Source: a virus
Strand: one strand, 5' to 3'
IMG/VR virus record: IMGVR_UViG_3300027659_000020
Location: 1 to 64,000 of that record
Length of the DNA stretch: 64,000 bases
The notes under the pieces are model-generated. The model had not been told where the DNA came from. It was given only the letters and a program-made list of their open reading frames with translations, and searched no databases. Below are positions 10,678-37,539 of this stretch, one piece after another. Within the stretch, counting starts at the first letter, position 1. Every line of letters begins with the position of its first letter. Both the position numbers and the translations under genes were made by a program.

Positions 10678-11286
10678 ATGAAACAAAACCATTCATCGTC
10701 TAATCCGTTACTCGAGCTGCTTAATCAAGAAAAGAAAGCACAGAATGCATTTGCTGGTAAGGAAATTGCTCATCTTCATGAGTACTATCTGACCGGCGAG
10801 ATTGAAGAAGCTAGTAAGTATACCGAATGGTTCAATGTAATTCGGCATGCTCCACCAACTGACCTAGTCAAGCTTTACATTAACTCAGAGGGCGGCAGCT
10901 TATGGACAGCAATTCAGTTTATGCGCGTGCTCAAGGAGTGCAAAGCACAGGTAGTTGCTTCGGTAGAAGGCGCGTGTATGAGTGCAGCAACGATTATCTT
11001 TTTGATGTCTGATAGTTATGAGATCTCGCCGCATTCCATGTTCATGTTCCATAATTACAGCGGAGGAATTATCGGTAAAGGCGGCGAGATGATCGACCAG
11101 ATCAATCATGAGCGCGACTGGTCGGAAAAACTGCTTAACGAGATCTATGAGAATTTCTTAACAAAAGACGAGATTCGAGCAATACTTGATAACAAAGACA
11201 TCTGGATGACATCCGAGCAAGTGGTCGTACGGCTGAATAAGAAAGCTAAGGCAAATAAGAAAGCTAAGCTGAACTCTAAGGAATAG
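10678..11286 (+). CDS. ClpP-like serine protease
   Basis: 202 residues. YINSEGGS, EGACMSAA with catalytic Ser S102, and FMFHNYSGG with catalytic His H125 are the ClpP signature; an Asp in the later helical part would complete the triad. It has no signal peptide. The tail is Lys/Ala-rich (NKKAKANKKAKLN). In phages, such enzymes may act as a head maturation protease or with host Clp ATPase; it lies far from head genes here, so a cytoplasmic role is equally possible. Confidence 0.88.
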   Translation: MKQNHSSSNPLLELLNQEKKAQNAFAGKEIAHLHEYYLTGEIEEASKYTEWFNVIRHAPPTDLVKLYINSEGGSLWTAIQFMRVLKECKAQVVASVEGACMSAATIIFLMSDSYEISPHSMFMFHNYSGGIIGKGGEMIDQINHERDWSEKLLNEIYENFLTKDEIRAILDNKDIWMTSEQVVVRLNKKAKANKKAKLNSKE

Positions 11287-13959: not shown

Positions 13960-14035
13960 GCCCTTGTAGCTCAGTTGGTAGAGCACCAGTTTTGTAAACT
14001 GGTTGTCGTCGGTTCAATCCCGTCCGAGGGCTCCA
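13960..14035 (+). tRNA. tRNA-Thr(TGT)
   Basis: 76 bases. The acceptor GCCCTTG pairs with CGAGGGC, the anticodon loop is TTTGTAA and the T loop is GGTTCAATCC; discriminator T with encoded CCA. First canonical tRNA of the array. Confidence 0.95.
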
Positions 14036-14039
14036 TTTT

Positions 14040-14110
14040 GCACTAGATTCATCTTCAAAGTGAATCAAAGATTCCGACCCAATAAAGTAAAGTCGAAACG
14101 GAGTGCACCA
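14040..14110 (+). other. tRNA-like element with encoded CCA, non-canonical arms
   Basis: It starts GCACT and ends AGTGC-A-CCA, like an acceptor stem with discriminator and CCA, and is spaced four bases after tRNA-Thr as a tRNA would be. However, no standard T loop (GGTTCRA) or anticodon arm can be drawn; inside are ATTCA/TGAAT and CGAC/GTCG hairpins. It may be a decayed tRNA or a tRNA-end mimic. Confidence 0.35.
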
Positions 14111-14223
14111 AATTTCCCTTCACGGTGTGAGGGTCTGATGCCAGCAAGCGATGCTTTCCGATTCGGTTGCGTTCTTCGTATCGCCCAAGAGCAAGATTCA
14201 GATAAAACCGTTATTTATTTTCT

Positions 14224-14298
14224 GCACAGGAAGTCAACTGGTTAGACCGCAGCTTGCAAACCTGCTATTAGCGAGTTCGATTCTCGCCCTGTGCTCCA
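14224..14298 (+). tRNA. tRNA-Cys(GCA)
   Basis: 75 bases. Acceptor GCACAGG/CCTGTGC, anticodon loop TTGCAAA, T loop GAGTTCGATTCTC. Discriminator T is the Cys identity base; CCA is encoded. The top pair of the anticodon stem is a C-C mismatch. Confidence 0.92.
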
Positions 14299-14308
14299 TC
14301 GATTTTAC

Positions 14309-14398
14309 GGAGGAATGGCTGAGTCCGGTTTAAGGCAACTGACTTGAAATCAGTCGTGGGGCAACTCACCGTGGGTTCAAATCCTACTTCCTCCGCCA
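14309..14398 (+). tRNA. tRNA-Ser(TGA)
   Basis: 90 bases with a long variable arm, as expected for Ser. Acceptor GGAGGAA/TTCCTCC, anticodon stem ACTGA/TCAGT with loop CTTGAAA, discriminator G, CCA encoded. Confidence 0.95.
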
Positions 14399-14405
14399 CT
14401 TTTCT

Positions 14406-14490
14406 GGCGCGTCGCATAGCGGCTATTGCAGGAGACTGTAAATCTCCCCTCTTCGGATACCCCTTGGTTCGAGTCCAAGCGTGCCCACCA
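14406..14490 (+). tRNA. tRNA-Tyr(GTA)
   Basis: 85 bases, class II variable arm as in bacterial tRNA-Tyr. Anticodon stem GGAGA/TCTCC with loop CTGTAAA; the acceptor has two G-U pairs; discriminator A, CCA encoded. Confidence 0.93.
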
Positions 14491-14503
14491 ATTTCATTGA
14501 TAA

Positions 14504-14579
14504 GCTGGGGTAGCTCAACGGTTTGAGCAGCGCGTTTACATCGCGAAGGCTGGGGGTTCAAATCCCTCCCTCAGCACCA
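14504..14579 (+). tRNA. tRNA-Val(TAC)
   Basis: 76 bases. Anticodon stem CGCG/CGCG with loop TTTACAT, acceptor GCTGGGG/CCTCAGC, T loop GGTTCAAATCC, discriminator A, CCA encoded. Confidence 0.93.
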
Positions 14580-14590
14580 TTTTATTTTTA

Positions 14591-14666
14591 GGGCTCATAT
14601 CTCAGTTGGTAGAGAAGCTGCTTTGCAAGCAGAAGGTCGCAGGTTCGATCCCTGTTGAGTCCACCA
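14591..14666 (+). tRNA. tRNA-Ala(TGC)
   Basis: 76 bases. Anticodon loop TTTGCAA. The acceptor GGGCTCA/TGAGTCC contains the G3-U70 pair that defines alanine tRNAs; discriminator A, CCA encoded. Confidence 0.95.
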
Positions 14667-14689
14667 TTTTTCTCAATTTCCGCAAGGGA

Positions 14690-14807
14690 ACAGGTGTATC
14701 TAGTGAATGGCACACGCCCAATGGGAGGCGCAAGCCGTTAGACCAAACCACTAGGATAACCACCACTGGGAAGGGGGCGGGGAGCGATCTCCTCCCCCAA
14801 CTTTTTT
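14690..14807 (+). ncRNA. Small structured RNA ending in a terminator, inside the tRNA array
   Basis: The 155 bases between tRNA-Ala and tRNA-Trp hold no gene. CTAGTG (about 14700) pairs with CACTAG (about 14748), enclosing GGC/GCC and CGCC/GGCG hairpins; a rho-independent terminator follows. Possibly a short independent RNA or a spacer that trims the array transcript. Confidence 0.35.
14773..14807 (+). terminator. Rho-independent terminator within the tRNA array
   Basis: GGGGG-C-GGGGAG, tetraloop CGAT, CTCC-T-CCCCC, then AAC and six T. One of the strongest hairpin-T-tract signals in the window. Transcription of downstream tRNAs must either read through it or start again. Confidence 0.8.
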
Positions 14808-14821
14808 ATTCTTTACTTTAT

Positions 14822-14896
14822 ACGGACGTGGTACATTAGTAGTGCAGCAGTCTCCAAAACTGCCTTATGAGGGTGCGATTCCCTCCGTCCGTGCCA
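14822..14896 (+). tRNA. tRNA-Trp(CCA)
   Basis: 75 bases. Acceptor ACGGACG/CGTCCGT, anticodon stem GCAGT/ACTGC with loop CTCCAAA, discriminator G as in Trp tRNAs, CCA encoded. Confidence 0.92.
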
Positions 14897-14898
14897 AT

Positions 14899-15117
14899 TT
14901 GCCAGAATCTGATGATTTGGATTTTCTCATGTATTAAATCCAGGGTAGGTTTAATTCCCCCCGGGCAATTCATTTTGCGGCAGCAAGGGACCCCGCTAAG
15001 TCGCGGATATTTGGCGCTGTCAGCTGGTATCAAGCCCAGCCTGCAATTCAATTTTTGATAGTTAGCACACCCTTAATGAGGTCAGCTTTAATAGACTTGG
15101 GTACGGAATCAACTATC
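14899..15117 (+). other. Gene-free stretch with two tRNA-like and one long-stem element
   Basis: Two consecutive elements look like degenerate tRNAs. TTGCCAG pairs with CGGGCAA (about 14899 and 14962) with a T-loop-like GGTTTAATTCC, and TTGCGGC pairs with CCTGCAA (about 14975 and 15047) with a T-arm-like GCTGGTATCAAGCCCAGC. Both end in TTCA instead of CCA and lack a proper anticodon arm. A third element is closed by TTTGATAGTT / AACTATCAAA (15056-15120). They may be decayed tRNAs or parts of a structured RNA. Confidence 0.35.
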
Positions 15118-15121
15118 AAAT

Positions 15122-15333
15122 TTTGAATAGCAGCTCGGAGTGTAGAAGATTGTTTCCATCTTCGGTACGAGCACGGTCTCTAGCCGTCAGCGGAAAAACG
15201 CAGAATGTAACGAAAAGCCTCTGGGTTCATTAACGGCAAGTTTATTGGGAAACATTAAACTTGCCGGAATCTATGCGTAAATAGGAAACTCGCTGGAGTG
15301 TAGCCATATAAAGCAAAACTACACCTATTCAAA
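15122..15333 (+). ncRNA. Structured noncoding RNA (about 210 nt) of unknown family
   Basis: The ends pair: TTTGAATAG (15122-15130) with CTATTCAAA (15325-15333), and further in GTGTAG (15140-15145) with CTACAC (15319-15324). Inside are GAAGAT/ATCTTC, ACGG/CCGT, GCG/CGC and a perfect ten-pair stem GGCAAGTTTA / TAAACTTGCC. A second GGAGTGTAG copy at 15295-15303 could compete for the CTACAC strand, giving two alternative folds. It contains no open frame of note. It sits directly before tRNA-Asp. Confidence 0.55.
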
Positions 15334-15341
15334 TAATTTTA

Positions 15342-15416
15342 GGGGTGGTAGCTTAATGGCGAAGCACCAGCTTGTCACGCTGTAGATTGCGAGTTCAAAT
15401 CTCGTCCATCCCGCCA
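15342..15416 (+). tRNA. tRNA-Asp(GTC)
   Basis: 75 bases. Acceptor GGGGTGG/CCATCCC, anticodon stem CAGC/GCTG with loop TTGTCAC, discriminator G, CCA encoded. Confidence 0.95.
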
Positions 15417-15425
15417 ATTTCATCT

Positions 15426-15845
15426 ATGAATACTCAAACTAAAAAAATAGTAGTTGCCAGCGGTTATTTTAACCCGATTCATGTCGGGCATATCGAATAC
15501 CTTGAAAGGGCTAAGGAACTTGGCGACAAACTAGTCGTCATTGTTAATACCGATGCACAAGTAAAGATCAAGGGTTCTGTTCCATTTCAGACCGAGCAAG
15601 ATAGATTGCGCATTGTTCAGTCACTAAAAGTGGTAGACCAAGCAATCTTATCCATCGATACCGATGGAAGCGTTTGCCGCTCACTTGTCTTTTTGAAGCC
15701 AAATATCTTTGCTAAAGGCGGAGATAGGCATTCTGGCGAAATTCCAGAAAAGGTAGTATGTGATGCTCACGGAATTGCTATCATAGATGGTCTTGGAGCT
15801 AAGATTCGATCTAGCTCTAGTATAATTTCTGCCGCCATCGTCTAA
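15426..15845 (+). CDS. Cytidylyltransferase-family (HxGH) nucleotidyltransferase
   Basis: 139 residues from ATG 15426; the frame is open upstream into tRNA-Asp, so the internal Met is the real start. SGYFNPIHVGHIEYL carries the HxGH motif that binds the nucleotide phosphates, and KIRSSSSII near the end is the second family motif (ISSS-like). Such enzymes transfer CMP or AMP to small alcohol phosphates or sugars; the substrate cannot be told. The TAA stop at 15843-15845 lies inside the D-arm region of the next tRNA, overlapping it by 15 bases. Confidence 0.85.
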   Translation: MNTQTKKIVVASGYFNPIHVGHIEYLERAKELGDKLVVIVNTDAQVKIKGSVPFQTEQDRLRIVQSLKVVDQAILSIDTDGSVCRSLVFLKPNIFAKGGDRHSGEIPEKVVCDAHGIAIIDGLGAKIRSSSSIISAAIV

Positions 15846-15905
15846 CGGTTAGGACAACGGGTTTTCATCTCGTTAATCGGAGTTCGATTCTCCGTGGTGG
15901 TACCA
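15831..15905 (+). tRNA. tRNA-Glu(TTC), overlapping the end of a protein gene
   Basis: 75 bases. Acceptor GCCGCCA/TGGTGGT with two G-U pairs, anticodon loop TTTTCAT, T loop GAGTTCGATTCTC, discriminator A, CCA encoded. Its first 15 bases are also the last five codons of the nucleotidyltransferase gene. Confidence 0.93.
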
Positions 15906-15909
15906 CTTT

Positions 15910-15986
15910 CGGCGATTAGCTTAGTCTGGTAGAGCGCCTGGTTTGGGACCAGGAGGCCGCAGGTTCAAATCCTGCATCGCCGACCA
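15910..15986 (+). tRNA. tRNA-Pro(TGG)
   Basis: 77 bases. Acceptor CGGCGAT/ATCGCCG, anticodon stem CTGG/CCAG with loop TTTGGGA, discriminator A, CCA encoded. Confidence 0.95.
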
Positions 15987-15995
15987 CTTTTAGTC

Positions 15996-16003
15996 TATAA
16001 ATA
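15996..16003 (+). promoter_or_regulatory. T4-type late promoter TATAAATA
   Basis: An exact TATAAATA box nine bases before ATG 16013. Transcription would begin within a few bases of the start codon. Confidence 0.7.
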
Positions 16004-16012
16004 GCTGATACG

Positions 16013-16666
16013 ATGAAATCCTTTAAAGAATTCCTTAGAGAATCGCAATTCGCAAATAATACTCAGAAGACGCAGGTTGCCACGACCGGCGGTACCTATG
16101 AGAAGACTGGTGCTTTTCTGAAAGACAAACTGAAGCCACACTCAAAGATTGTCAGCATTGGAGCCGGGCTTGATCATACACGAGATGCAATGCACCGCGG
16201 CCTTGGACATAGTCATACAATCGACGATATGGAGCCAAATCCGGAAAAACGCAAGAATGCCCCTGAGTATACTAAGTCTGAACAGATTCCTCATAATCAT
16301 TATGACGCAGCGGTTTCGCACAATGTGCTAAATGTGGTTGAGCCTCATGTTCGCGATCACGTGATGCATTCAATTTTCAACTCAGTTAAGCCTGGCGGTC
16401 ATGCAGTAATTGGAGCCCGTAAGTGGACTGGTGATGTGGCCAAAAACAAAAACAAAACTTTGGCCTCTGAGCCAAAGGCTATGTGGGTTCACAAAGGAAC
16501 TGAGCATTCGTATCAAAAAGGATTTGACGGAGACGAACTTAAGAGTTATGTCGAAGGCTTTGCTGCAAAGCACGGTCACAAGGTCAAGGTGAGTAATCTA
16601 AAAGGCATTTCAGCCAATGGAGTTCATGTTCACATCCTTAGCAAGGGTAATCGTCCGGCTTCTTAA
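16013..16666 (+). CDS. SAM-dependent methyltransferase-like protein
   Basis: 217 residues. After an N-terminal MKSFKEFLRES helix come KIVSIGAGLDHTRD (glycine-rich SAM loop), DDMEPN (acidic residue after strand 2), HYDAAVSHNVLNVV and VKPGGHAVIGAR, the usual order of a Rossmann-type methyltransferase. Target unknown. Short 'SFKEFLxE' N-termini are common on T4-like virion proteins and may mark maturation or packaging (inference). It is driven by a late promoter amid tRNAs. Confidence 0.8.
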   Translation: MKSFKEFLRESQFANNTQKTQVATTGGTYEKTGAFLKDKLKPHSKIVSIGAGLDHTRDAMHRGLGHSHTIDDMEPNPEKRKNAPEYTKSEQIPHNHYDAAVSHNVLNVVEPHVRDHVMHSIFNSVKPGGHAVIGARKWTGDVAKNKNKTLASEPKAMWVHKGTEHSYQKGFDGDELKSYVEGFAAKHGHKVKVSNLKGISANGVHVHILSKGNRPAS

Positions 16667-16679
16667 ACCATTTTCTGAT

Positions 16680-16755
16680 GGTAGTGTAGCTCAGCTGATA
16701 GAGCACGCGCTTGATAAGCGCGCGGTCCTCGGTTTGATCCCGAGCGCTACCACCA
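16680..16755 (+). tRNA. tRNA-Ile(GAT)
   Basis: 76 bases. Acceptor GGTAGTG/CGCTACC, anticodon stem GCGC/GCGC with loop TTGATAA, discriminator A, CCA encoded. The T loop GGTTTGATCC has T for the usual second-position T/C variation. Confidence 0.94.
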
Positions 16756-16764
16756 TATTTACTC

Positions 16765-16858
16765 GGAGGATTGGCAGAGCGGTTTAATGCAAGACTTTGC
16801 TAAAGTCTAGGATGATAAATAACTCGTCCCGCAGGTTCAAATCCTGCATCCTCCGCCA
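16765..16858 (+). tRNA. tRNA-Ser(GCT)
   Basis: 94 bases with a long variable arm. Acceptor GGAGGAT/ATCCTCC, anticodon stem AGACT/AGTCT with loop TTGCTAA, discriminator G, CCA encoded. Confidence 0.95.
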
Positions 16859-16865
16859 CTTTCGT

Positions 16866-16939
16866 TGACCCTTTGTGTAATGGTAGCACAGGAGACTTTG
16901 ACTCTCCTAGTCATGGTTCGAGCCCATGAGGGTCAGCCA
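16866..16939 (+). tRNA. tRNA-Gln(TTG)
   Basis: 74 bases. Acceptor TGACCCT/AGGGTCA, anticodon stem GGAGA/TCTCC with loop CTTTGAC, discriminator G, CCA encoded. Confidence 0.95.
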
Positions 16940-16949
16940 ATAGCTTTCT

Positions 16950-17369
16950 TTATAGTTCTCCGCGCTTGATCAGAATTGCTTTGTTAATCTGATGACTTTC
17001 TGCCACGAGTTCTTTGTTCTCACCCTGATAAGGAACAGCATAATTATTATTGATTAGCCAATGATTCAGATTAGTGCCGTCATCTAGAATAAACTCACCG
17101 AGGATACGACCAAATTTGTCGTCGTTATTATCCGGCTTGAGAGTGTTAACCTTGACCCAACTACCCGCAGGCAGTTTTTCGGCAAGCTTCTTCTTAGATA
17201 GAAGACCGCGCGGCTTCTCTTCCTTGTTGGATGTGCGTGATTCGGGAGTATCCACTCCAGCCATACGAACGCGCTGATTAGCTAGCACGATATTAAAACC
17301 GAGATCCAGATCGATGTCGACTGTATCGCCATCTAGAACCTTATTGACTTTGCATGAGTATTGGTACAT
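16950..17369 (-). CDS. Staphylococcal-nuclease-like endonuclease
   Basis: 139 residues from the Met at 17369; an upstream in-frame Met exists, but a GATAAATA late-type box eight bases before 17369 decides this start. VLDGDTVDIDLDLG, RMAGVDTPESR and DDKFGRILGEF are the staphylococcal/micrococcal nuclease motifs, with the acidic calcium site and the two Arg residues. It cleaves DNA or RNA. No signal peptide, so it acts inside the cell. It is on the opposite strand to the tRNAs. Confidence 0.9.
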   Translation of the reverse strand: MYQYSCKVNKVLDGDTVDIDLDLGFNIVLANQRVRMAGVDTPESRTSNKEEKPRGLLSKKKLAEKLPAGSWVKVNTLKPDNNDDKFGRILGEFILDDGTNLNHWLINNNYAVPYQGENKELVAESHQINKAILIKRGEL

Positions 17370-17377
17370 AGTTACAG

Positions 17378-17385
17378 TATTTATC
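17378..17385 (-). promoter_or_regulatory. Late-type promoter GATAAATA for the nuclease
   Basis: On the minus strand GATAAATA lies eight bases before the ATG at 17369, the same spacing as the TATAAATA boxes elsewhere. Confidence 0.5.
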
Positions 17386-17458
17386 GAATTATAAATATTC
17401 TTGCTATAAAGATTCATCAGCTTTCACAGTTCAATCTTAACTTTACTACTGTTAATAC

Positions 17459-17650
17459 ATGCTAGTGATCCGCAGAATGGTCGACAAGCATAGGTCTTAC
17501 ACCGCTATCTTTCTTAAAGGTGAGCAGCCTAAGATCTTTCCTACTTCGGATTACGAGCATGCTAGAATCCTAAAGATCTTCAAGCAGGATAAAGCTTATG
17601 AAGATGTTCTAAACGATTTTACAGATTATGGGCGAGTGGCGGAATGGTAG
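17459..17650 (+). CDS. Small protein whose stop lies in tRNA-Leu
   Basis: 63 residues, unknown, mixed alpha/beta with basic start. Its last seven codons (21 bases) overlap the tRNA-Leu gene and its TAG stop is the GGTAG of the D loop. The similar arrangement at two other tRNAs supports it being a real gene. Confidence 0.5.
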   Translation: MLVIRRMVDKHRSYTAIFLKGEQPKIFPTSDYEHARILKIFKQDKAYEDVLNDFTDYGRVAEW

Positions 17651-17713
17651 ACGCGAAGGTCTTAGAAGCCTTTTCCTTTTGGAGTGCAGGTTCGATCCCT
17701 GTCTTGCCCACCA
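17630..17713 (+). tRNA. tRNA-Leu(TAG)
   Basis: 84 bases with class II variable arm. Acceptor GGGCGAG/CTTGCCC, anticodon stem AAGGT/GCCTT with loop CTTAGAA, discriminator A, CCA encoded. Confidence 0.94.
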
Positions 17714-17719
17714 TTTTAC

Positions 17720-17795
17720 GGTCCTGTAGCTCAACGGTTAGAGCAGAGGACTCATAATCCTTTGGTTGCGGGTTCAAATCCCGCTGGGACCACCA
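17720..17795 (+). tRNA. tRNA-Met(CAT), first copy
   Basis: 76 bases. Acceptor GGTCCTG/TGGGACC, anticodon stem AGGA/TCCT with loop CTCATAA, discriminator A, CCA encoded. It could also be an Ile tRNA if C34 is modified to lysidine; the sequence alone does not tell. Confidence 0.93.
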
Positions 17796-17810
17796 TATAC
17801 ATATTTCTAT

Positions 17811-17886
17811 GCGGTAGTATCTCAGTTGGTAGAGAACGAGTTTTCCAAACTTGATGTCGCAGGTTCGATCCCTGTCTGCCGCACCA
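17811..17886 (+). tRNA. tRNA-Gly(TCC)
   Basis: 76 bases. Acceptor GCGGTAG/CTGCCGC, anticodon stem CGAGT/ACTTG with loop TTTCCAA, discriminator A, CCA encoded. Confidence 0.94.
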
Positions 17887-17901
17887 ATTTCACATACATA
17901 T

Positions 17902-18411
17902 ATGAGCATTGCACATCTTCTAGGTAATGGTCCTTCCCGCAAGGACTTTGTAAATGACCCCAATGGGCCAGCATTTGGCTGTAATTTATCTGATTCTGCG
18001 TTACCACTAAAGGCAACGTTCATCATGGATAAAGTCTGCATTGGACATATCCATAATAATAAGTTGAAGCTAAACTTTCCGGTGATTGTGCCGCAGAATA
18101 TAACGCGGCTCGTGCAACAGTGCGATCCTGCACCAGTTATTCTAGATACTATCTTAAATAACGTTGAGAATGGAGAATCTACGGGACATAAAGCGGTCGA
18201 ATATCTGCTCAGCAAAGGCTTTACTGAGATTCATATGTGGGGCTTTGATTCGCTCTACCGCGAGACGATAGAATCTGATAGCCATACAAAGATGCCCGAG
18301 TGTCCAGCGTCTGCAAATAACTGGAAGAAATGGCGTAAGAACTGGCAAAGTATCTTCAATTCCGAGCTTGGTAAGAAGTGCAAGTTCGAGGTTCATGGGA
18401 AGCCCTTGTAG
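17902..18411 (+). CDS. Glycosyltransferase-like / DUF115-like protein
   Basis: 169 residues from ATG 17902. LLGNGPSRKDF at the N-terminus and STGHKAVEYLLSKGFTEIHMWGFDS in the middle are the layout of the MptE/DUF115 and sialyltransferase-like Rossmann fold, where the GNGPS loop binds a nucleotide. Phage versions may modify a sugar or nucleotide. Its TAG stop (18409-18411) is formed by the conserved U8-A9-G10 of the following tRNA-Arg, with ten bases of overlap. Confidence 0.65.
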   Translation: MSIAHLLGNGPSRKDFVNDPNGPAFGCNLSDSALPLKATFIMDKVCIGHIHNNKLKLNFPVIVPQNITRLVQQCDPAPVILDTILNNVENGESTGHKAVEYLLSKGFTEIHMWGFDSLYRETIESDSHTKMPECPASANNWKKWRKNWQSIFNSELGKKCKFEVHGKPL

Positions 18412-18478
18412 CTCAATTGGAAAGAGCACCGTTTTTCTAAATCGGCGGCTGTGGGTTCAAATCCCGCCGAGGGCACCA
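18402..18478 (+). tRNA. tRNA-Arg(TCT), overlapping the end of a protein gene
   Basis: 77 bases. Acceptor GCCCTTG/CGAGGGC, anticodon loop TTTCTAA, T loop GGTTCAAATCC, discriminator A, CCA encoded. One mismatch occurs in the anticodon stem. Confidence 0.92.
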
Positions 18479-18481
18479 GAA

Positions 18482-18706
18482 TTATGCAAGCTGTTGCAGC
18501 ATCTTAATGATGTGCTCGGCTTTTGACCACTGGCCAGAATCGATAGCTGCAAGCAATTCTTTTTTTAGATTGTACACTATATCAGCTAGATCGGTACCAA
18601 GTATACTGTTTCCAATCGAGTGTGAAGCTTGAGGTGGAGTATGCTTGCCGTAAATGCTAGCAGCTTGCTTGATCCCTATGGAATTACTGATGGGGCTTAT
18701 TTCCAT
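18482..18706 (-). CDS. Small late protein
   Basis: 74 residues, unknown. Ser/Ile/Gly-rich N-terminal half, helical C-terminal half. A perfect TATAAATA box lies six bases before the start codon on the minus strand, so it is probably expressed late from a leaderless message. Confidence 0.6.
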   Translation of the reverse strand: MEISPISNSIGIKQAASIYGKHTPPQASHSIGNSILGTDLADIVYNLKKELLAAIDSGQWSKAEHIIKMLQQLA

Positions 18707-18712
18707 TTGAGC

Positions 18713-18720
18713 TATTTATA
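18713..18720 (-). promoter_or_regulatory. T4-type late promoter TATAAATA
   Basis: Exact TATAAATA on the minus strand, six bases before ATG 18706. Confidence 0.7.
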
Positions 18721-18733
18721 AAAAGCGTACTTT

Positions 18734-18813
18734 CTTCTGCTTGTCAGAAGTAATGGTGGAGGGCTTCATCTAAGAAGCCCCTCGCGACTGAGTAACCTGC
18801 GCAGTGGTTGCTC
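18734..18813 (+). ncRNA. Three consecutive hairpins upstream of the P-loop kinase
   Basis: CTTCTG/CAGAAG (18734-18750), GGGCTTC/GAAGCCC (18761-18780, perfect) and GAGTAACC/GGTTGCTC (18790-18813, one G-U) follow each other with no open frame. Possibly a small RNA or regulatory element between divergent genes; the strand is not certain. Confidence 0.35.
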
Positions 18814-18864
18814 CTTATTTCTAACCGTCTGTTGGTAATCAATAGCTTAGGTAATTCAAAGTGC

Positions 18865-18892
18865 TTTACATTTTTAGTGGATGACGTAGGAT
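18865..18892 (+). promoter_or_regulatory. Early-type promoter, consensus form
   Basis: TTTACA (18865-18870), 16 bases, TAGGAT (18887-18892). The predicted transcription start coincides with ATG 18899, giving a leaderless mRNA. Confidence 0.65.
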
Positions 18893-18898
18893 TATCCT

Positions 18899-19366
18899 AT
18901 GAATTCAATGCCTACCATCACCTTCACCGCTGGTTGCGGTGGTTCTGGCAAAAGTACAATGCTCAAGAAGAACTACCCCGGTTTGCCTGGCGTTGACTCG
19001 GATGCCATCAAGATGGCGATGCCGAACTACGATTCAGCTAATCCGCAGCTGGTGCACGATGCATCTACGACGATTGCCATGCGCGAATTCTACTCCCGGC
19101 TCGGCGCTGGCAAGGATTTCTTCTTCGATGGAACTGGCAAAAACGTCGAGAAATACATCAGCCTTATCACTGCTGCCAAGGCTGCTGGCTTCCAGACACG
19201 GATGTTCTTTGTTCGCGCTAAGATTGAAACCTGCCTTGCTCGGAATGCTGCTCGGACACGAGTGGTTCCAGCGGAGGTTATTCTTGAAACCTACCAAGCG
19301 CTTGAGGTTGCACAAAGCATTCTAAAGCACTACGTTGACTTCTATGAGGTTGTCAATAACGACTAA
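18899..19366 (+). CDS. P-loop kinase (AAA_33 / zeta-toxin-like)
   Basis: 155 residues. Walker A GCGGSGKST at 12-20; VDSDAIK shortly after and FFFDGTGKN as the Walker B-like strand; RNAARTRVVP is an Arg-rich lid. This is the pattern of small polynucleotide-kinase or zeta-toxin-like kinases. In a tRNA-rich phage region a 5'-RNA/tRNA repair kinase is attractive but unproven; no phosphatase domain is fused. The start at 18899 is supported by promoter position. It ends five bases before the tmRNA. Confidence 0.75.
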   Translation: MNSMPTITFTAGCGGSGKSTMLKKNYPGLPGVDSDAIKMAMPNYDSANPQLVHDASTTIAMREFYSRLGAGKDFFFDGTGKNVEKYISLITAAKAAGFQTRMFFVRAKIETCLARNAARTRVVPAEVILETYQALEVAQSILKHYVDFYEVVNND

Positions 19367-19370
19367 TTTT

Positions 19371-19748
19371 GGGCGCGTTCTGGATTCTACTTAATGGTGG
19401 ACTTACTGGAAGCAAGCATGGTTGCTGGACCATTCAAAACCTGCAAAAACACAAACGGCATCAACAATGTCATCGCTGCAATCTTCGGTCAGACCGAGCA
19501 GCATCAGCTCGCTGCCTAATAACAGCGACCGATTCTAGTACCGATACTCGCTGAGTATTGGAATCGTCATCTAGCGAGTCTTGAGTGTTAGGTTTTTACT
19601 TGGTTAGTAGCACTCGAGTACACAAATCGAAGTTATGCTGAGATGAGAGCAAGTCCTCTTCTCAGAAGAACACAAATCTTGCTAAGCTTGTAGAAACTGG
19701 ATAGAAAAACTGCTAAGCACGCGGGTTCAACTCCCGCCGCGTCCACCA
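19371..19748 (+). ncRNA. ssrA: Transfer-messenger RNA (tmRNA), one-piece
   Basis: 378 bases. The 5' end GGGCGCG pairs with the 3' CGCGTCC (with the G3-U70 alanine determinant), followed by A-CCA. The 5' TTCTGGATTC and 3' ACGCGGGTTCAACTCCCGC are almost identical to E. coli tmRNA. A PK1-like pseudoknot (ATGGT/ACCAT with GCTGG/CCTGC) is followed by an A-rich linker and a frame ending in codons for QLAA and tandem stops TAA TAA (19519-19524 region), the classic proteolysis tag. The likely resume codon is GGC, giving a tag of about 20 residues. tmRNA frees stalled ribosomes and tags incomplete proteins for degradation. Confidence 0.95.
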
Positions 19749-19752
19749 ATTT

Positions 19753-19920
19753 ATGAGTATAGACAAAGCAATTAAACACAAAAAAGAAAAACGCAAAGAA
19801 TACCGTGGATCAAAGCGGTTTGATCGCACGTGCCGAAATCACGGGAGATGCCCTTACTGTGCTGGCGGCCGCCAACATAGGATGCGTCGGCAAGAACCAA
19901 TAGACCAGCTTTCTGAATGA
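19753..19920 (+). CDS. Small zinc-finger-like conserved T4-like protein
   Basis: 55 residues, MSIDKAIKHKKEKRKEYRG then CRNHGRCPYC, a Cys/His cluster that can hold one zinc. I recall close relatives with the same N-terminus in marine T4-like phages. It starts five bases after the tmRNA and may be read from the same transcript. Very basic; nucleic-acid binding is plausible. Confidence 0.7.
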   Translation: MSIDKAIKHKKEKRKEYRGSKRFDRTCRNHGRCPYCAGGRQHRMRRQEPIDQLSE

Positions 19921-19935
19921 TCTCGCTGGTTCTAT

Positions 19936-20124
19936 TTAACCAGAACCATTTATTTTCTTGAACTCAATCTTACCAGATTGAATGATGACCTCAAATGTGT
20001 CTCCATGCTGTACTCTCAAATGCTCAGGTCTGAGTTCGTCATCGAAGATGATAGAGTCATCCTCAGTAAGCTTAAAGCTGTAGTCTAGGAATGTAGTAGG
20101 AAACTTCTGCAGATCGTGATGCAT
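19936..20124 (-). CDS. Small protein of unknown function
   Basis: 62 residues on the minus strand, acidic in the middle, beta-rich towards the C-terminus (FEVIIQSGKIEFKKI). No family recognised. It converges on the preceding small gene. Confidence 0.5.
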   Translation of the reverse strand: MHHDLQKFPTTFLDYSFKLTEDDSIIFDDELRPEHLRVQHGDTFEVIIQSGKIEFKKINGSG

Positions 20125-20157
20125 TTAGTTATCTATCTAAAATTTTCCATTTTATTG

Positions 20158-20185
20158 TTTACAGATGCACTAATCAATGTATGAT
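20158..20185 (+). promoter_or_regulatory. Early-type promoter driving a noncoding transcript
   Basis: TTTACA (20158-20163), 16 bases, TATGAT (20180-20185). No protein gene follows for 1.1 kb; the first transcribed gene-like object is the structured RNA described next. Confidence 0.6.
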
Positions 20186-20808
20186 CTAGTCTGTAATCTT
20201 CGTTCTTTAACATTTTTCAAGTAGATACCCGTTTAATGAAAATAATCGCCCAATATGTCTGAGGCTGGTTACTACGGTGCGGAAATTGACAAATACACCG
20301 AGCATCTACTTGAATCATTTCACAGGTCGCTCTGTTGAAACTCTAAAGGTTATGTCGAGCGCTAGTGACCCTTGCCGGTATCACACAGGTTGACCTCTAA
20401 CCTTTAGAGAATTTTTTCTCTGGATTGATCTCCGGAGGCTCCGTTCCTGAGGCAGGTTTTCTCGAACTTGTTGTCACCACGGGCGTAAGCAGTACTGGAA
20501 TCTTTGTGATAAGGAAACAAGCCTTGGCAAAGACTGCATTACGACGCCGATGGAACGGAGTAACTTTCATCATCATACTCGACTAGGCGAGTCTAAATAG
20601 AAGTATAGGCCTAGTGCGGCAGGGATAACCTCCCTGCGACTTGCCACGCCGCAGTCCGGTCGAGCTCCCGGTTAAAGCCAAAAGCGCTGCGTGAATAAAC
20701 GTGAGAACAAAAATCCGCTGGAGTATATCTCTCTGGAGTATAAATAAATCTCACTGCGATTTAGATATTCGCAAGCGTGGCGCCACATTTTGTTCTTTTT
20801 ACATTTTT

Positions 20809-20881
20809 GCAGAGTAGATCAGTGGTAGATCGCTTGGCTCATAACCAAGAGGGCAGGGGTTCAATTCCCTTCTCTGCACCC
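20809..20881 (+). tRNA. tRNA-Met(CAT), second copy, embedded in the large noncoding RNA
   Basis: Acceptor GCAGAG/CTCTGC, D arm GATC/GATC, anticodon stem CTTGG/CCAAG with loop CTCATAA, T loop GGTTCAATTCC. The 3' end reads A-CCCA instead of A-CCA, and the seventh acceptor pair is T-T, so it is slightly irregular. Whether initiator, elongator or Ile-type is undecided. Confidence 0.88.
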
Positions 20882-21234
20882 AATTTTCTTAGACCACAAA
20901 TCGGCAATTGCGCCGTCAGTGGTCGTATTCATCGAAGTCAGCAACATCCGATAAGCAGAACAGCTATGGTTGCCGAGTGACTAATTGCGACGGATGGTAT
21001 GCGAAGCCCGGTTGTTAAGTCCTGCTGTTATCTATAACGGACTCAACCGGTGACAGTAATGTCTAGCAGAGCCCAGGACAACATCGATGAGCAGCGGTCT
21101 AAGAGAAAATGCAGATACTGCATCCCATGGGATACCGTGGGAAGCTTTCGTTAGGTCTAAACCTCACGCGGAATGTAGAACCGCGGTGTATTACTAGTTA
21201 AAATGTGTCTCGACTATGGAGACATCAGATATGA

Positions 21235-21289: not shown

Positions 21290-23203
21290 ATGCATAATAC
21301 AAACAACCGAATAAACCTGAAGAACAAATTGCTTTCTAGCATTCTTTTCTTCTTTTTTGCAGTCACAGCGTTTGCCCTTCCCGGCACCAGCGCTACTAAT
21401 CTGCAGACAACTACCGGAGTTTCCGCCACAGCTAGTGGCGCAACCCTCTCTATCGCAGCTCCAAACAAATCAGTTTTGACATGGCAGAATTTTGGAAGTG
21501 GTGCTGATGCTATCGCTGCAGGCGATACTATCAATTTTGCACTTCCTTCTATCTCGTCATCTGTTCTGAATATTGTTGCTGGCGGTGCTCGTTCCACGAT
21601 TGATGGAACAATTACCTCTAACGGTAACGTATTCTTGCTGAATGGCAGCGGTGTACTTATTGGCAATGGCGCACGCATTGAAACCAACTCGCTTTGCATC
21701 AGCACTTCCGACAATGCAGCATTCGCGAATTACTACTTTCAACAAAGCGGAAAGCTTCCTTCTCAGGACAGTCTAGTTCTTGCTGCTGGATCAACGCAGA
21801 TCAATTCTGGATCGGTTATTACCGTGACAGAGAATATCTCGCTTTACACGAAAAACCTCGAGCTTGGTGGTGCAGTTATCAATGGCAATCTGCGCGTTAA
21901 TGCAGATGGCATTGTTAACCTGGGTTCATCTGGTTTGACATTCGTTAATGGTAATATCGCAGTTACAAATCCAACGGGTCTAACGACTCTTGGCTCAAGT
22001 GGCAATAATCTGCTCTTTAGCAATGCAATTACTATCGATGGCGGCGCAGTCAATCAGCCAATCAACTCATCTGTCTCTGCAAAGAGTCTGACGATTGAGG
22101 CAGGGACCAACAATGTCTCATTGGCACGAGTCACTGTTCCAGCTATTGTAGCAAATGGAAATAACGTGAGCGTGACTTTTGGCGCTGTCGTCAATCCTAC
22201 CTTTAGCTCAAATGCCACCGGGAACATTGCAGTGGTATCTCCAACCTCTCTGGCTGTCAATAATTTGAAGAATAGCACAGGCACCACAAGTGTTCTGGCA
22301 TCCGGTGCACTAACTCTCGGCAATATCCATGTGGATTCTGCAGCCGCTACTACATTCACTGGCTCTTCAGTTTCTGATTCACGGGCTAATTCCTTTGTCT
22401 ATGGTCCAGTGACATTTGCTGCTACTGCAGGCGATGTCAGTCTGACCAAAGAAGGACATAGCTTTGGCCCTGTCAGTGTTACTGCCACCGGCAATGCCAC
22501 TATTACTGAATCAGCCGCGCTGAATCTAAATGTAGTTAATGCTGCAAGCTTGGTAGCGAAGTCGAATGAATTTATCTTTCAGACGCCCGCTACCGGTGTA
22601 TTGACAACTCAATCCGCAACCATTACTACTGCTGGCAATGTCACGCTAAATGCAGTTACGAATAACATCGGAAATCTTACTGTCTCCGGCGCTAACATCG
22701 CAGTGACCACCAGCTCTGCAATTGCTCTGGGCAATACTGATACTGGTGGTACATTGACTCTCGGCACCTCGGGTGCAATCACTCAAAGTGCTGATACGAA
22801 GATCAATGTCTTTGGCACAACTACTCTAACTACAATAGATAATGCAATCACTCTGACCAATGCCGGTAATCGATTCGGTGGGCTGAATTTTGATACCGGT
22901 CTGGGCGGCACGATCCTTGTAACCGAGGATACCACTCTGAATGTAAGCGCCCTTCGTGCCAATACAGTTACTCTTAAGAGTCTCGATAGTGTTATCACTA
23001 CCGGAACAAATGCAGTAACCGCGAATCTCGTTAATGTCCTGGCTGGAAAAGACTTCATTCCTGCAGCCAACTTCCGCGCTAATAATGGTCTGACTGTTCT
23101 GGCAAGTGGAACCGCAGATCTCAGCCTACTGAGCCTATCGGCTAATCTGAACAATCGTATGCCAAGCATCATTGCCACAGCATTCAAGACACCAACTCCG
23201 TAA
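21290..23203 (+). CDS. Filamentous-haemagglutinin-like exported protein
   Basis: 637 residues. A basic N-terminus and a hydrophobic stretch ending TAFALP form a signal peptide with cleavage near residue 33. About 35-200 resembles the N-terminal secretion (TPS) domain of filamentous haemagglutinins: NFGSGADAIAAGDTINFALP, GTITSNGNVFLLNGSGVLIGNGARI. The rest is a repetitive Thr/Ser/Asn/Ala-rich beta-helix (ANGN, TTTAGNVTLNAVTNN, LTNAGNRFGGL) without Cys. Such proteins leave the cell through a TpsB pore and act as adhesins or contact effectors. No TpsB partner is in the window. The AT-rich TATATATAAT just upstream is a likely -10. A strong terminator follows. Confidence 0.78.
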   Translation: MHNTNNRINLKNKLLSSILFFFFAVTAFALPGTSATNLQTTTGVSATASGATLSIAAPNKSVLTWQNFGSGADAIAAGDTINFALPSISSSVLNIVAGGARSTIDGTITSNGNVFLLNGSGVLIGNGARIETNSLCISTSDNAAFANYYFQQSGKLPSQDSLVLAAGSTQINSGSVITVTENISLYTKNLELGGAVINGNLRVNADGIVNLGSSGLTFVNGNIAVTNPTGLTTLGSSGNNLLFSNAITIDGGAVNQPINSSVSAKSLTIEAGTNNVSLARVTVPAIVANGNNVSVTFGAVVNPTFSSNATGNIAVVSPTSLAVNNLKNSTGTTSVLASGALTLGNIHVDSAAATTFTGSSVSDSRANSFVYGPVTFAATAGDVSLTKEGHSFGPVSVTATGNATITESAALNLNVVNAASLVAKSNEFIFQTPATGVLTTQSATITTAGNVTLNAVTNNIGNLTVSGANIAVTTSSAIALGNTDTGGTLTLGTSGAITQSADTKINVFGTTTLTTIDNAITLTNAGNRFGGLNFDTGLGGTILVTEDTTLNVSALRANTVTLKSLDSVITTGTNAVTANLVNVLAGKDFIPAANFRANNGLTVLASGTADLSLLSLSANLNNRMPSIIATAFKTPTP

Positions 23204-31873: not shown

Positions 31874-32212
31874 ATGGAGGAGATCAATACATTCAAGACG
31901 ATGGTCAACCAGTATGGCCTACCGATTATGGCAGCTGGTGGAATGGGCTACTTTATTTACTTTGTCTGGAAATTTGTAACTGAGAATATCAATGTAGAGC
32001 TCTCGAACGCGAAGAAAATAATGATTGAGCTAATCGATAGAATTAGAATGCTAGATAACGATTTAATACGTCTCGAGCAGAAGATCAATACTGCTATCGA
32101 GGTTAAACGTGTAGAGAATCCGCTTAAAGCTAACCCCGAACGGCCTGCTGGAACAACTTCGCCATTTAATCTACCTCCTACCGATGGACAATCACAGCCG
32201 AAACAGCTATAA
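31874..32212 (+). CDS. Small membrane protein B (paralogue pair, holin-like)
   Basis: 112 residues from ATG 31874 (a GTG at 31871 is directly before). One membrane segment at about 15-36 (GLPIMAAGGMGYFIYFVWKFV), then a helix with IDRIRMLDNDLIRLEQKI matching the tail motif of its neighbour, and a Pro-rich end. It overlaps the csgF-like gene by 29 bases. Confidence 0.6.
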   Translation: MEEINTFKTMVNQYGLPIMAAGGMGYFIYFVWKFVTENINVELSNAKKIMIELIDRIRMLDNDLIRLEQKINTAIEVKRVENPLKANPERPAGTTSPFNLPPTDGQSQPKQL

Positions 32213-32693
32213 GGCCGCCGATACTGGATTCCTATTACTAGTAGGAATTTTGCTATTCCTGTGTGTATTGCAGTCGTGTGGCCGGGCCTCGGATATGGTA
32301 CATTCATTTAAGTCGCCGGCATTTAGCGGAATTGGCTACTCCTCGCATATATTTACTCAGGAGAATTTAGCACGCACTCGCAAGCAAACAATCAAAGATG
32401 TTGCTAAAGCAGAGGCAGAAAATCTAAAGCTTGCAAGCCAGAATACTCCTCTGAATAGCTTCATTGTGAATCTGCAGGCGCGTATTTACTCGCAGCTTGC
32501 ATCTCAGGTAACAGATCAGATCTTCAATGCATCTGGTGCAACTTTTGGTGTCATTAACTTGCAAGGTGGATCAACAGTAACATGGAATCGAGCGGGTGAC
32601 TTTGTCACTCTATACATTACTGATCCTTCCACCGGCAACATTACTTCAATTCAGGTGCCGGTAGGATCTCTATCGCCGCCTCCATCTAGCTGA
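32184..32693 (+). CDS. csgF: CsgF-like curli assembly factor
   Basis: 169 residues. After a hydrophobic export segment (15-31) with a Cys at 32 comes the CsgF pattern: SFKSPAFSG (E. coli mature CsgF starts with FRNPNFGG, which plugs the CsgG pore), then NTPLNSFIVNLQARIYSQLASQ and a C-terminal VTLYITDPSTGNITSIQVP matching the LNVTDRKTGQTSTIQV end of CsgF. In curli systems, CsgF caps the CsgG channel on the outer face and couples secretion to nucleation. Here its stop overlaps the csgG-like start (TGATG), so the two are made together. The long N-terminal extension before the plug motif is unusual. Confidence 0.82.
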   Translation: MDNHSRNSYKAADTGFLLLVGILLFLCVLQSCGRASDMVHSFKSPAFSGIGYSSHIFTQENLARTRKQTIKDVAKAEAENLKLASQNTPLNSFIVNLQARIYSQLASQVTDQIFNASGATFGVINLQGGSTVTWNRAGDFVTLYITDPSTGNITSIQVPVGSLSPPPSS

Positions 32694-33502
32694 TGAAAGT
32701 AATTGCCATGAGCCTACTCGCGCTGTCTTTAGTTGGCTGCGCTTCAATACCTCGCTCGCCGAGTATTCTTGAGATGCCACGCAGCCAAGTATCTCCGCTT
32801 GAGAAGCAATTGATCGGGGTTCCACCAATTGATGGTAACCGGATCACTGTTGCTATCTACGGTTTCGCAGATAAGACAGGTCAGCGCAAGACTCAGGATG
32901 CTTATGCTTCATTCTCATCAGCGGTCACACAAGGAGCAGATTCTTGGCTAATTGACTCACTGCGCACTGCTGGATCAGGTAGGTGGTTTCAGGTGCTAGA
33001 GCGAACATCCTTGGACAATCTAATTAAGGAACGGCAGCTTATTGCACAGACGCGCGAGTCGTTTCTGGGCAGAGATGCTGAAAAACTTTCTCCGATGCTA
33101 TTCGCCGGTATCATTGCTGAGGGCGGGATTATCGGATACGATACTAACATTTTGACTGGAGGTGCCGGAGCTAGTCTCTTAGGTATATCCGGAAATACAC
33201 AATACCGAAAAGATGTCGTGACAGTCTCCTTGAGATTTGTCTCGGTTCAGACTGGAGAAGTACTGCTTTCTGTAGCAGTTACAAAAACAATCACAAGTGT
33301 GAGCGTCTCTGGAAATCTTTTCAAGTTCTATGAACACGGTACAACGCCCGCAGAATCTGAATTGGGCCTGACAGCTAATGAGCCGAATACTATCGCGGTT
33401 CGTAGCGCAATTGATCAGGCTGTTATAGAGATCATACATCAAGGGGCGAAGACTGGATTATGGAAATTCGTCACGACACTACCACTAACCACAAATCCTT
33501 AA
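32693..33502 (+). CDS. csgG: CsgG-like outer-membrane secretion channel lipoprotein
   Basis: 269 residues, close to CsgG (277). Lipoprotein signal MKVIAMSLLALSLVGC with Cys 16 as the lipid anchor. RITVAIYGFADKTGQRK, FSSAVTQGADSWLIDSL, RWFQVLERTSLDNLIKERQLI and the later GGIIGYDTN with two amphipathic beta stretches (the barrel strands) follow the CsgG order. CsgG forms a nine-subunit channel in the outer membrane that exports unfolded curlin without ATP. It lies between csgF-like and curlin-like genes, which together suggest a complete phage-made secretion line. Confidence 0.92.
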   Translation: MKVIAMSLLALSLVGCASIPRSPSILEMPRSQVSPLEKQLIGVPPIDGNRITVAIYGFADKTGQRKTQDAYASFSSAVTQGADSWLIDSLRTAGSGRWFQVLERTSLDNLIKERQLIAQTRESFLGRDAEKLSPMLFAGIIAEGGIIGYDTNILTGGAGASLLGISGNTQYRKDVVTVSLRFVSVQTGEVLLSVAVTKTITSVSVSGNLFKFYEHGTTPAESELGLTANEPNTIAVRSAIDQAVIEIIHQGAKTGLWKFVTTLPLTTNP

Positions 33503-35496: not shown

Positions 35497-37539
35497 ATGA
35501 AGAAACATATGCTCAAGACTCTTGCTGTGGGATTTGGCGTGCTTGCAGCCGCGGCCATTCTGCGAATCTTGGATCCATACCCAATTGAAGTACTTCGTCT
35601 AAAAGGTCTAGATTACTACCAACGAGCGCAAGAAAAGAAGCTATCCGAGAATATCGCGGTTATTGAGATCGACGAGAATGCTCTAGAAGCAAATGGGCAA
35701 TGGCCCTGGAAACGCGATGTACTTGCTGCCGGTATACAACGCGCCGCAGACGCAGGAGCAACAGCAGTAGTTCTGCCCGTCATCTTTGCAGAGCCTGACC
35801 GGCTTGGCGGAGATGTTCAGTTCGTAGAGCAGCTTAATAAAACAGCAGTAATCATTTCTCAGTCTGCATCCCAAAAGGGCAAAGGATATCCAGTGCCTCG
35901 GGGCCTAGCTACTATCGGTGGAGCAGCAGAGGATTGGCTGTTCGACTATCCTGCTGCAATTGGGCCGATTGATGAAATTGGCAAAGCCGCAGCAGGTGTC
36001 GGTATGCTGCTAACAGCACCTGAACTTGATGGCGTGGTACGTCGCCTTCCGCTAATCATACAAGTCAAAGGTGAGAAGTATCCTACTTTACCACTCGAGG
36101 TGCTGCGCGTCTTTGGCGGTGAGGCGAGTAATCAGGCAAAAGTCACAGAAGCTGGTATTGCGGCAGTGCGCGTGGCAGGTATTGCGCCAATTAAGACTGA
36201 TGCTAATGCCAGAGTCTGGCTTAACTTTAAGTATACCTTTTCTTCAGTATCTTACACTGATAAAGACTGGAGCAGTCTAAAGGGTCGTATTGCTATTATT
36301 GCACCGACGGCAGAAGGTCTGGCAAATACTGTAGCATCACCTCTGGGTACTACATACGGTTATGAGGTCAATCTTCATGCATTGCAGATGCTGATTGATG
36401 AGGCGCGTTTGGAACGGCCAGCGGAATTTGATCTTTATGAGCTTGCTGCAGGTGTGCTGATTTGCGCAATAGCAGTAGTGACTATCTGCTATCTGAGTTA
36501 TAAACTTGCCGGGCTGATCTTTGTGCTACTTGCTGCAATTCCCATCGGTATAGGATTCTACCTATTTCACCTCGGATTGCTAGCCGACTATACATGGCTG
36601 ATAATCGCGTTGACAGCAAGCTGGGGATCTGCGCTGTTCATGCGATTCGTGATGGAATTTAAGTTAAAGCAGCAGATTAAAAAGCAGTTTGAGACATACC
36701 TATCGCCAGATCAGGTTGCGCAGTTACAGAAGAATCCAGATGCACTCAAACTCGGAGGTGAGGAACGCGAGCTTTCCATCATGTTCACCGATGTCCGTGG
36801 GTTTACCGCAATCTCTGAGCACTACGGAAAGAACGTCCAGGGACTGACTCAGATCATGAATCGCTACATGACAGCAATGACTAGGTCAATCATTGAGAAG
36901 AAAGGTACTCTCGACAAGTACATCGGCGATGCTCAGATGGCATTCTGGAATGCTCCTCTCGATGACAATTCTCATGCCATTCATGCGGTTGAAACTGGTC
37001 TGGAGATGATGAGAAGTCTGAAGGCTTTTAATGCAGAGATCACTCAGGAAGGTGTCCCGGCTTTTGGTATGGGTCTGGGTATCAACACCGGAACTGTGGT
37101 GGTAGGCAATATGGGATCTGAGCAGCGATTTGACTACACCTGCCTGGGCGATCATGTCAATCTTGCATCACGCCTAGAAGGACAGTCAAAACCGTACGGT
37201 GTGAAGATCGTTCTGGGACCACTTACTCGTGAGCGCGTGAAGGATGTCTATCCTACGCTAGAGCTTGATTGCATCGCAGTAAAAGGTAAGAAAGAAGGCG
37301 TGCGAATCTACACCGTCTTTGACAAAGGCACTCATATCTATCCGGTGAGCCATGATAGCTTTCTGGATCTATATCGTACTCGCGAATGGAATGAAGCAAT
37401 CAGGCTGGCAAAGCACCTTGCTGCTAGTATGGACTTCATGGCTGGATACTACGAGATGATGGTCGAGCGGATTGAGTATCTGCGCGATAATGATCCCGGA
37501 ACAAGTTGGGATACTATTTTTAGAGCCACCTCGAAATAA
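35497..37539 (+). CDS. CHASE2-domain class III adenylate cyclase
   Basis: 680 residues, two bases after the FecR gene. One N-terminal membrane helix (about 5-23), a periplasmic CHASE2 sensor (about 30-310, with VIEIDENALEANGQWPWKR), three membrane helices (about 315-385) and a cytoplasmic cyclase domain (about 425-610). Catalytic residues are all visible: metal-binding D432 (FTDVRGF) and D478 (DKYIGD), substrate-specifying K474 with T548 (DYTCLGD, the bacterial class IIIb form), and transition-state N555 and R559 (VNLASR). It should therefore make cAMP in response to a periplasmic signal, perhaps via the FecR-domain protein. Adenylate cyclases are hardly known in phages. A short helical C-terminus (about 615-680) follows. 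Confidence 0.92.
   Translation: MKKHMLKTLAVGFGVLAAAAILRILDPYPIEVLRLKGLDYYQRAQEKKLSENIAVIEIDENALEANGQWPWKRDVLAAGIQRAADAGATAVVLPVIFAEPDRLGGDVQFVEQLNKTAVIISQSASQKGKGYPVPRGLATIGGAAEDWLFDYPAAIGPIDEIGKAAAGVGMLLTAPELDGVVRRLPLIIQVKGEKYPTLPLEVLRVFGGEASNQAKVTEAGIAAVRVAGIAPIKTDANARVWLNFKYTFSSVSYTDKDWSSLKGRIAIIAPTAEGLANTVASPLGTTYGYEVNLHALQMLIDEARLERPAEFDLYELAAGVLICAIAVVTICYLSYKLAGLIFVLLAAIPIGIGFYLFHLGLLADYTWLIIALTASWGSALFMRFVMEFKLKQQIKKQFETYLSPDQVAQLQKNPDALKLGGEERELSIMFTDVRGFTAISEHYGKNVQGLTQIMNRYMTAMTRSIIEKKGTLDKYIGDAQMAFWNAPLDDNSHAIHAVETGLEMMRSLKAFNAEITQEGVPAFGMGLGINTGTVVVGNMGSEQRFDYTCLGDHVNLASRLEGQSKPYGVKIVLGPLTRERVKDVYPTLELDCIAVKGKKEGVRIYTVFDKGTHIYPVSHDSFLDLYRTREWNEAIRLAKHLAASMDFMAGYYEMMVERIEYLRDNDPGTSWDTIFRATSK

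Follow-up and report, generated by a model that had tools for sequence, protein, structure and literature searches.

Phage-encoded tmRNA is, as such, already known: tmRNAs have been found in 402 of 18,146 phage genomes (PMC9004378), ssrA occurs in several mycobacteriophages (Bxz1, Cali, Wildcat, and others) and in Bacillus phage G (PMC4131195), and the mycobacteriophages IkeLoa and McGee are reported to carry a tmRNA beside about 30 tRNA genes. In huge phages tmRNA has also been described, and the presence of SmpB has been reported in some of them (PMC7162821). Methylophilales phage Melnitz possesses a permuted two-piece tmRNA, specified by a 453-nt gene and encoding the tag ANDNYVPVDYALAA, and a glutamine riboswitch has been reported for the same phage (PMC9004378).

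The DNA analysed here (the window; 64,000 nucleotides, positions 1 to 64,000 of IMG/VR record IMGVR_UViG_3300027659_000020) derives from a related T4-like phage, and in both phages the genes for PhoH and a PDDEXK nuclease precede the tmRNA; unlike that of Melnitz, the window tmRNA is a one-piece molecule of 378 nt with the tag GINNVIAAIFGQTEQHQLAA, it does not display the permuted two-piece organization, and it lies inside an array of 18 tRNA genes filling extra space after the nuclease. The occurrence of a two-piece and of a one-piece tmRNA near the same genes suggests that carrying a rescue RNA of their own is repeatedly useful to these phages. The tmRNAs of mycobacteriophages and phage G are likewise phage-encoded ssrA, from different phages and hosts. 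What is new is a one-piece tmRNA in the Melnitz phage group, carrying a lineage-specific "GI..L" tag and having a ClpP-like gene and a Pistol ribozyme in its vicinity.

Genomic context

The source record is an 89,556-base virus fragment (89.6 kb) in which end repeats were not found; it comes from a T4-like phage that shows synteny with Melnitz. PHROG matches include T4-like baseplate proteins, a T4-type single-strand binding protein, ribonucleotide reductase, PhoH, and nucleases. Melnitz (Kyanoviridae) and Pelagibacter phage HTVC008M were the nearest cultured phages found, and in a direct comparison 24 window proteins match the region 30000-75000 of Melnitz, mostly in the same order. A relative from the virus collection (G002) is truly syntenic, its proteins being 35-90% identical in the same gene neighbourhood, and its own tmRNA is found at the matching place, flanked on one side by an HNH gene with tRNAs and on the other by the homologue of a 637-aa gene. 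Since phage genes syntenic with G002 and Melnitz flank the window tmRNA on both sides, the gene lies inside the phage genome and not in a host flank. Between the PhoH/PDDEXK genes and the tmRNA are a ClpP-like gene, an HNH endonuclease, and the tRNA array; the relevant features are as follows.

10678 to 11286, plus strand: ClpP-like serine protease (Pfam Clp protease, 1.2e-11; Ser, His, and Asp aligned with ClpP structures)
13960 to 20882, plus strand: array of 18 tRNA genes enclosing the tmRNA (ARAGORN)
18899 to 19366, plus strand: small P-loop kinase (Zeta_toxin/AAA_33, polynucleotide-kinase-like), directly upstream of the tmRNA
20577 to 20643, plus strand: Pistol self-cleaving ribozyme (Rfam RF02679, 54.5 bits), in the same RNA array

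An earlier, sequence-only reading had placed the tmRNA among 18 tRNAs, the number also counted by ARAGORN, and beside a P-loop kinase. The kinase gene is indeed present, ending 4 bases before the tmRNA, and the two are probably on the same transcript; the neighbour is not conserved, however, and a conserved kinase-tmRNA module was rejected, the kinase being without a match in the syntenic G002.

Anatomy of the tmRNA

The assignment of the RNA at 19371-19748 as a phage-encoded one-piece tmRNA, already proposed from the letters alone with exact coordinates, is borne out by both programs suggested for its verification: ARAGORN calls a non-permuted tmRNA on the plus strand, with the tag GINNVIAAIFGQTEQHQLAA and the stops TAA TAA, and RF00023 covers the molecule end to end (model positions 1-374 of 374, 105.6 bits, E 3.2e-40). 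The individual elements are the following.

19371 to 19748, plus strand: one-piece tmRNA (ssrA-like), 378 nt with encoded CCA (ARAGORN, Rfam RF00023, covariation)
19371 to 19377 with 19738 to 19744, plus strand: acceptor stem, 7 bp, GGGCGCG/CGCGTCC; G3-U70 is the alanine identity pair
19412 to 19417, plus strand: inner part of helix 2, GCAAGC, pairing with GCTTGT at 19686-19691; invariant in 16 sequences
19418 to 19446, plus strand: pseudoknot PK1; stem 1 ATGG/CCAT, stem 2 TTGCTGG/CCTGCAA with one U-U mismatch; compensatory changes in relatives
19457 to 19522, plus strand: tag reading frame GINNVIAAIFGQTEQHQLAA and two stops; resume codon GGC, A at -4, 20-residue tag
19509 to 19528, plus strand: helix 5, TCGCTG/CAGCGA, with the stop codons in its loop
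19530 to 19579, plus strand: pseudoknot PK2; stem 1 CGATTC/GAATCG, stem 2 ACTCGCT/AGCGAGT
19721 to 19737, plus strand: T stem-loop, GCGGG-TTCAACT-CCCGC; compensatory changes at 4 of 5 pairs

The order 5' tRNA-like part, tag, 3' tRNA-like part within a single molecule defines the non-permuted arrangement, and the tRNA-like domain is complete, comprising the acceptor stem with G3-U70, the T arm, and the encoded CCA. By its RF00023-type features the RNA is thus confirmed as a one-piece tmRNA in which the pseudoknots seen are PK1 and PK2. Taken alone, PK1 of the window falls short of significance, its score being equalled or exceeded by 13 of 60 shuffles, and its stem 2 is interrupted by the U-U mismatch, so that PK1 is backed chiefly by the relatives; the downstream pseudoknot resolved is PK2, with support from covariation. 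The pseudoknots and the tag frame, whose absence was to count against the initial identification, are therefore all in place, as are the predicted QLAA ending followed by two stops, the GGC resume codon, and the tag of about 20 residues. The near base-for-base resemblance to E. coli tmRNA, also claimed at that stage, holds for the tRNA-like ends and does not extend to the rest of the RNA; over the final 30 nt the identity with attachment-site sequences of enterobacterial ssrA is about 90%. With E. coli ssrA (RF00023) the window tmRNA shares the tRNA-like domain, H2, PK1, H5, PK2, the presence of a resume codon, and the LAA end; it differs in the Gly resume codon, in the longer tag, and in the unrelated N-terminal half of the latter.

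Structural conservation among phage relatives

Scans of IMG/VR with the 5'-end pattern returned 112 loci and with the 3' motif TAAGCTTGTAGAAACT 36, and relatives were sorted by ARAGORN, Rfam, and manual reading; the lineage so recognized consists of about 30 phage contigs with tmRNAs of related tags. RNA identity between the window and its relatives is 51-61% where measured, and resides mostly in the tRNA-like ends. Covariation was assessed on 16 distinct phage sequences and 55 pairs (acceptor, T stem, H2a, H2c, H2d, PK1 stem 1, H5, and PK2 stems 1 and 2); a near-copy of the window phage (G001/L117, 2 mismatches over 19,558 bases) did not count as independent support. In this structure 95.8% of the cells are paired, and 25 of the 55 pairs show double-sided, compensated changes, values reached by none of 500 shuffles. 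When the partners are slid by 1-3 columns pairing falls to 36-44%, a comparison which favours the 55-pair structure because this was partly drawn from the same 16 sequences; the compensatory changes are independent of that circumstance. Covarying elements are the acceptor, the T arm, H2 (in its outer parts H2a and H2c), H5, PK1, and PK2; G3-U70 is kept in all 16 sequences, with acceptor pairs 4-6 changing on both sides, and PK2 stem 2, which also shows compensated changes, is completely paired in every one of them. PK1 was sought in each sequence separately; in most relatives its score is above that of almost every shuffle, and the letters that form it differ.

These data bear on the idea that the locus might be a remnant of host ssrA, left by integration or by imprecise excision at an attachment site. 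In favour of such an origin, numerous prophages of the phage collection share with ssrA just its terminal ~30 nt. When the tmRNA was compared with phage records by blastn, the matches listed were short, falling mostly on the ssrA 3' end as at attachment sites. Against this origin, the RNA is complete and covaries across divergent phages, it sits within the tRNA array of a T4-like phage, and a tyrosine integrase was not found in the three records searched; an attachment-site remnant was accordingly rejected and is extremely improbable. The covariation of the full-length RNA across phages, together with the retention of G3-U70 and the constraint on the tag (see below), points instead to a maintained tmRNA.

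About 19 relatives display an altered elbow (L175, L176, L177, L180-L183, L185-L189, L193, L195-L197, L199, L200, and L203): their T-loop reads TGCAACT, TGCAAGT, or GGCAGTA in place of TTCAANT and, with the exception of L187, the D-loop ACCAGATTC replaces TCTGGATTC. They retain the acceptor, G3-U70, the pseudoknots, and the tag, and are missed by ARAGORN; Rfam assigns 74-76 bits to the three that were checked. The Rfam family Atu_At1 (a Rhizobiales sRNA) was found just above cut-off directly 3' of the tmRNA in L176:391-498, L197:636-743, and L133:1393-1500.

The tag peptide and the search for a host

Related tags in the lineage include GINNVIAAIFGQTEQHQLAA in the window, GISNMLKSLFAVNQQEAQLAA in G002, GIVNSLKGAFAAPVAALAAFFSTEELQFAA in G003, GIVESLKSFFGSEELQFAA in G004, and GIIQSLKNAVASVTDSFNTSESFALVAA in G013, besides others; all of them end in AA preceded by L, F, Y, V, or A, the C-terminus of the window tag being LAA. 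The N-terminal half is of a lineage-specific GI..L/SLK type, neither the ANDEN type of E. coli nor that of Melnitz, in keeping with the original remark that the tag differs from common host tags. In the 13-sequence G013-type subgroup, a sister group to which the window tag itself does not belong, the pN/pS of the tag is 0.39, which indicates coding constraint. An amphipathic character was rejected for the window tag, which lies within its shuffles (fraction 0.20); a trend is seen in some relatives.

It had also been hoped that the tag would identify the host, and in this respect the tag failed, being of a phage-lineage type. The exact 18-base 3' motif of the lineage, sought in 84,980 species of bacteria and archaea, gave 11 matches and no bacterial tmRNA of this lineage; 4 of the 11 fall inside tmRNAs, all from Clostridia and with unrelated tags, so that naming a host by this route was rejected. 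As a single differing base is enough for a host to escape such an exact motif, this is a weak test of absence in bacteria.

Partner proteins

Neither the window record nor any of 22 tmRNA-bearing virus records yielded SmpB; many records are fragments, the 89.6-kb window record among them, and the gene might sit in its missing part. In the same search 10 of 14 control genomes were positive. A phage-encoded SmpB was therefore rejected for these records and host SmpB is presumably used, at variance with the huge phages, which have phage-encoded rescue parts in common with the present group and in some cases include SmpB, as against 0 of 22 records here. The lack of SmpB in the phage records is also what would be expected if the RNA acted mainly as a decoy, competing for SmpB and thereby weakening host trans-translation, the tag being incidental; mycobacteriophage DS6A, which has little beyond the tRNA-like domain, offers a precedent, such a molecule being inhibitory to tmRNA (PMC4131195). 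A tRNA-like domain alone suffices for a decoy, and the retention of the whole mRNA-like part, with pseudoknots, tag frame, and stops all kept and constrained, thus argues against this proposal, which appears quite improbable.

A different possibility is that the RNA does rescue ribosomes, its main use being to impose a phage-chosen fate on the tagged proteins, either by avoiding a host adaptor or by delivery to the phage ClpP-like protease; the lineage would then have evolved its own tag class, with a constrained GI..SLK-type half before the LAA end. The distinctive N-terminus of the tag is consistent with such a role, as are the failure to find the adaptor SspB in the 8 records searched (a phage SspB was accordingly rejected for these) and the ClpP-like gene, with aligned catalytic residues, of the window phage and G002, whose product is a possible partner of the tag. 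Among the tmRNA-bearing records searched, several being fragments, the ClpP-like gene is nevertheless confined to the window phage, its near-copy, and G002; ClpP was therefore rejected as a general partner and is seemingly not needed for this tag type. Considering in addition that the window tag is no more amphipathic than its shuffles and that wide variation of tag N-termini is seen in bacteria as well, both the special fate and the evolution of a dedicated tag class to serve it seem rather unlikely.

Proposed function

The RNA is very probably a functional, phage-maintained one-piece tmRNA. The simplest account would be ordinary trans-translation with host factors, the phage bringing the tmRNA and most of a tRNA set. 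If the gene is expressed during infection, RNase P and 3' nucleases of the host would release the tmRNA from the transcript of the tRNA array, host AlaRS would recognize G3-U70 and attach alanine, and SmpB and EF-Tu, likewise from the host, would bind the RNA; it would then enter ribosomes stalled on broken mRNA and donate Ala, after which translation would switch to GGC and append (A)GINNVIAAIFGQTEQHQLAA to the unfinished protein, the peptide added to a nonstop protein being predicted as AGINNVIAAIFGQTEQHQLAA. Ribosomes would thus be freed during infection and kept circulating while host RNA is broken down, and the C-terminal LAA would direct the unfinished protein to host ClpXP-type proteolysis. 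The lineage-specific tag makes it possible to test directly whether the phage gains ribosome rescue alone or also redirects the fate of the tagged proteins.

Other features of the phage genome

The Pistol ribozyme is found near the tmRNA in relatives too (L136:2525-2592, L128:2768-2819, L070:12393-12452, and L179:11486-11545). The association of ribozymes with tRNAs in gut phages has been described for theta ribozymes, in a paper which names Pistol only in a reference (PMC10879173), and a role of Pistol in phage tRNA processing may be undescribed.

The 637-aa protein (window 21290-23203), odd for a phage genome, contains a TPS (two-partner secretion) domain, DUF5649 repeats, and a hydrophobic N-terminus, and is kept in G002 at 42%. 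Homologues of the Melnitz curli genes csgF (40%) and csgG (46% identity) occur at window 32184-33502, and the Melnitz homologue of the protein at 35497-37539 is annotated as an adenylate/guanylate cyclase. Positions 73998-81962 of the record (L003) hold a 2,654-aa open reading frame with a segment common to several neighbouring long proteins, perhaps tail-fibre-like repeats.
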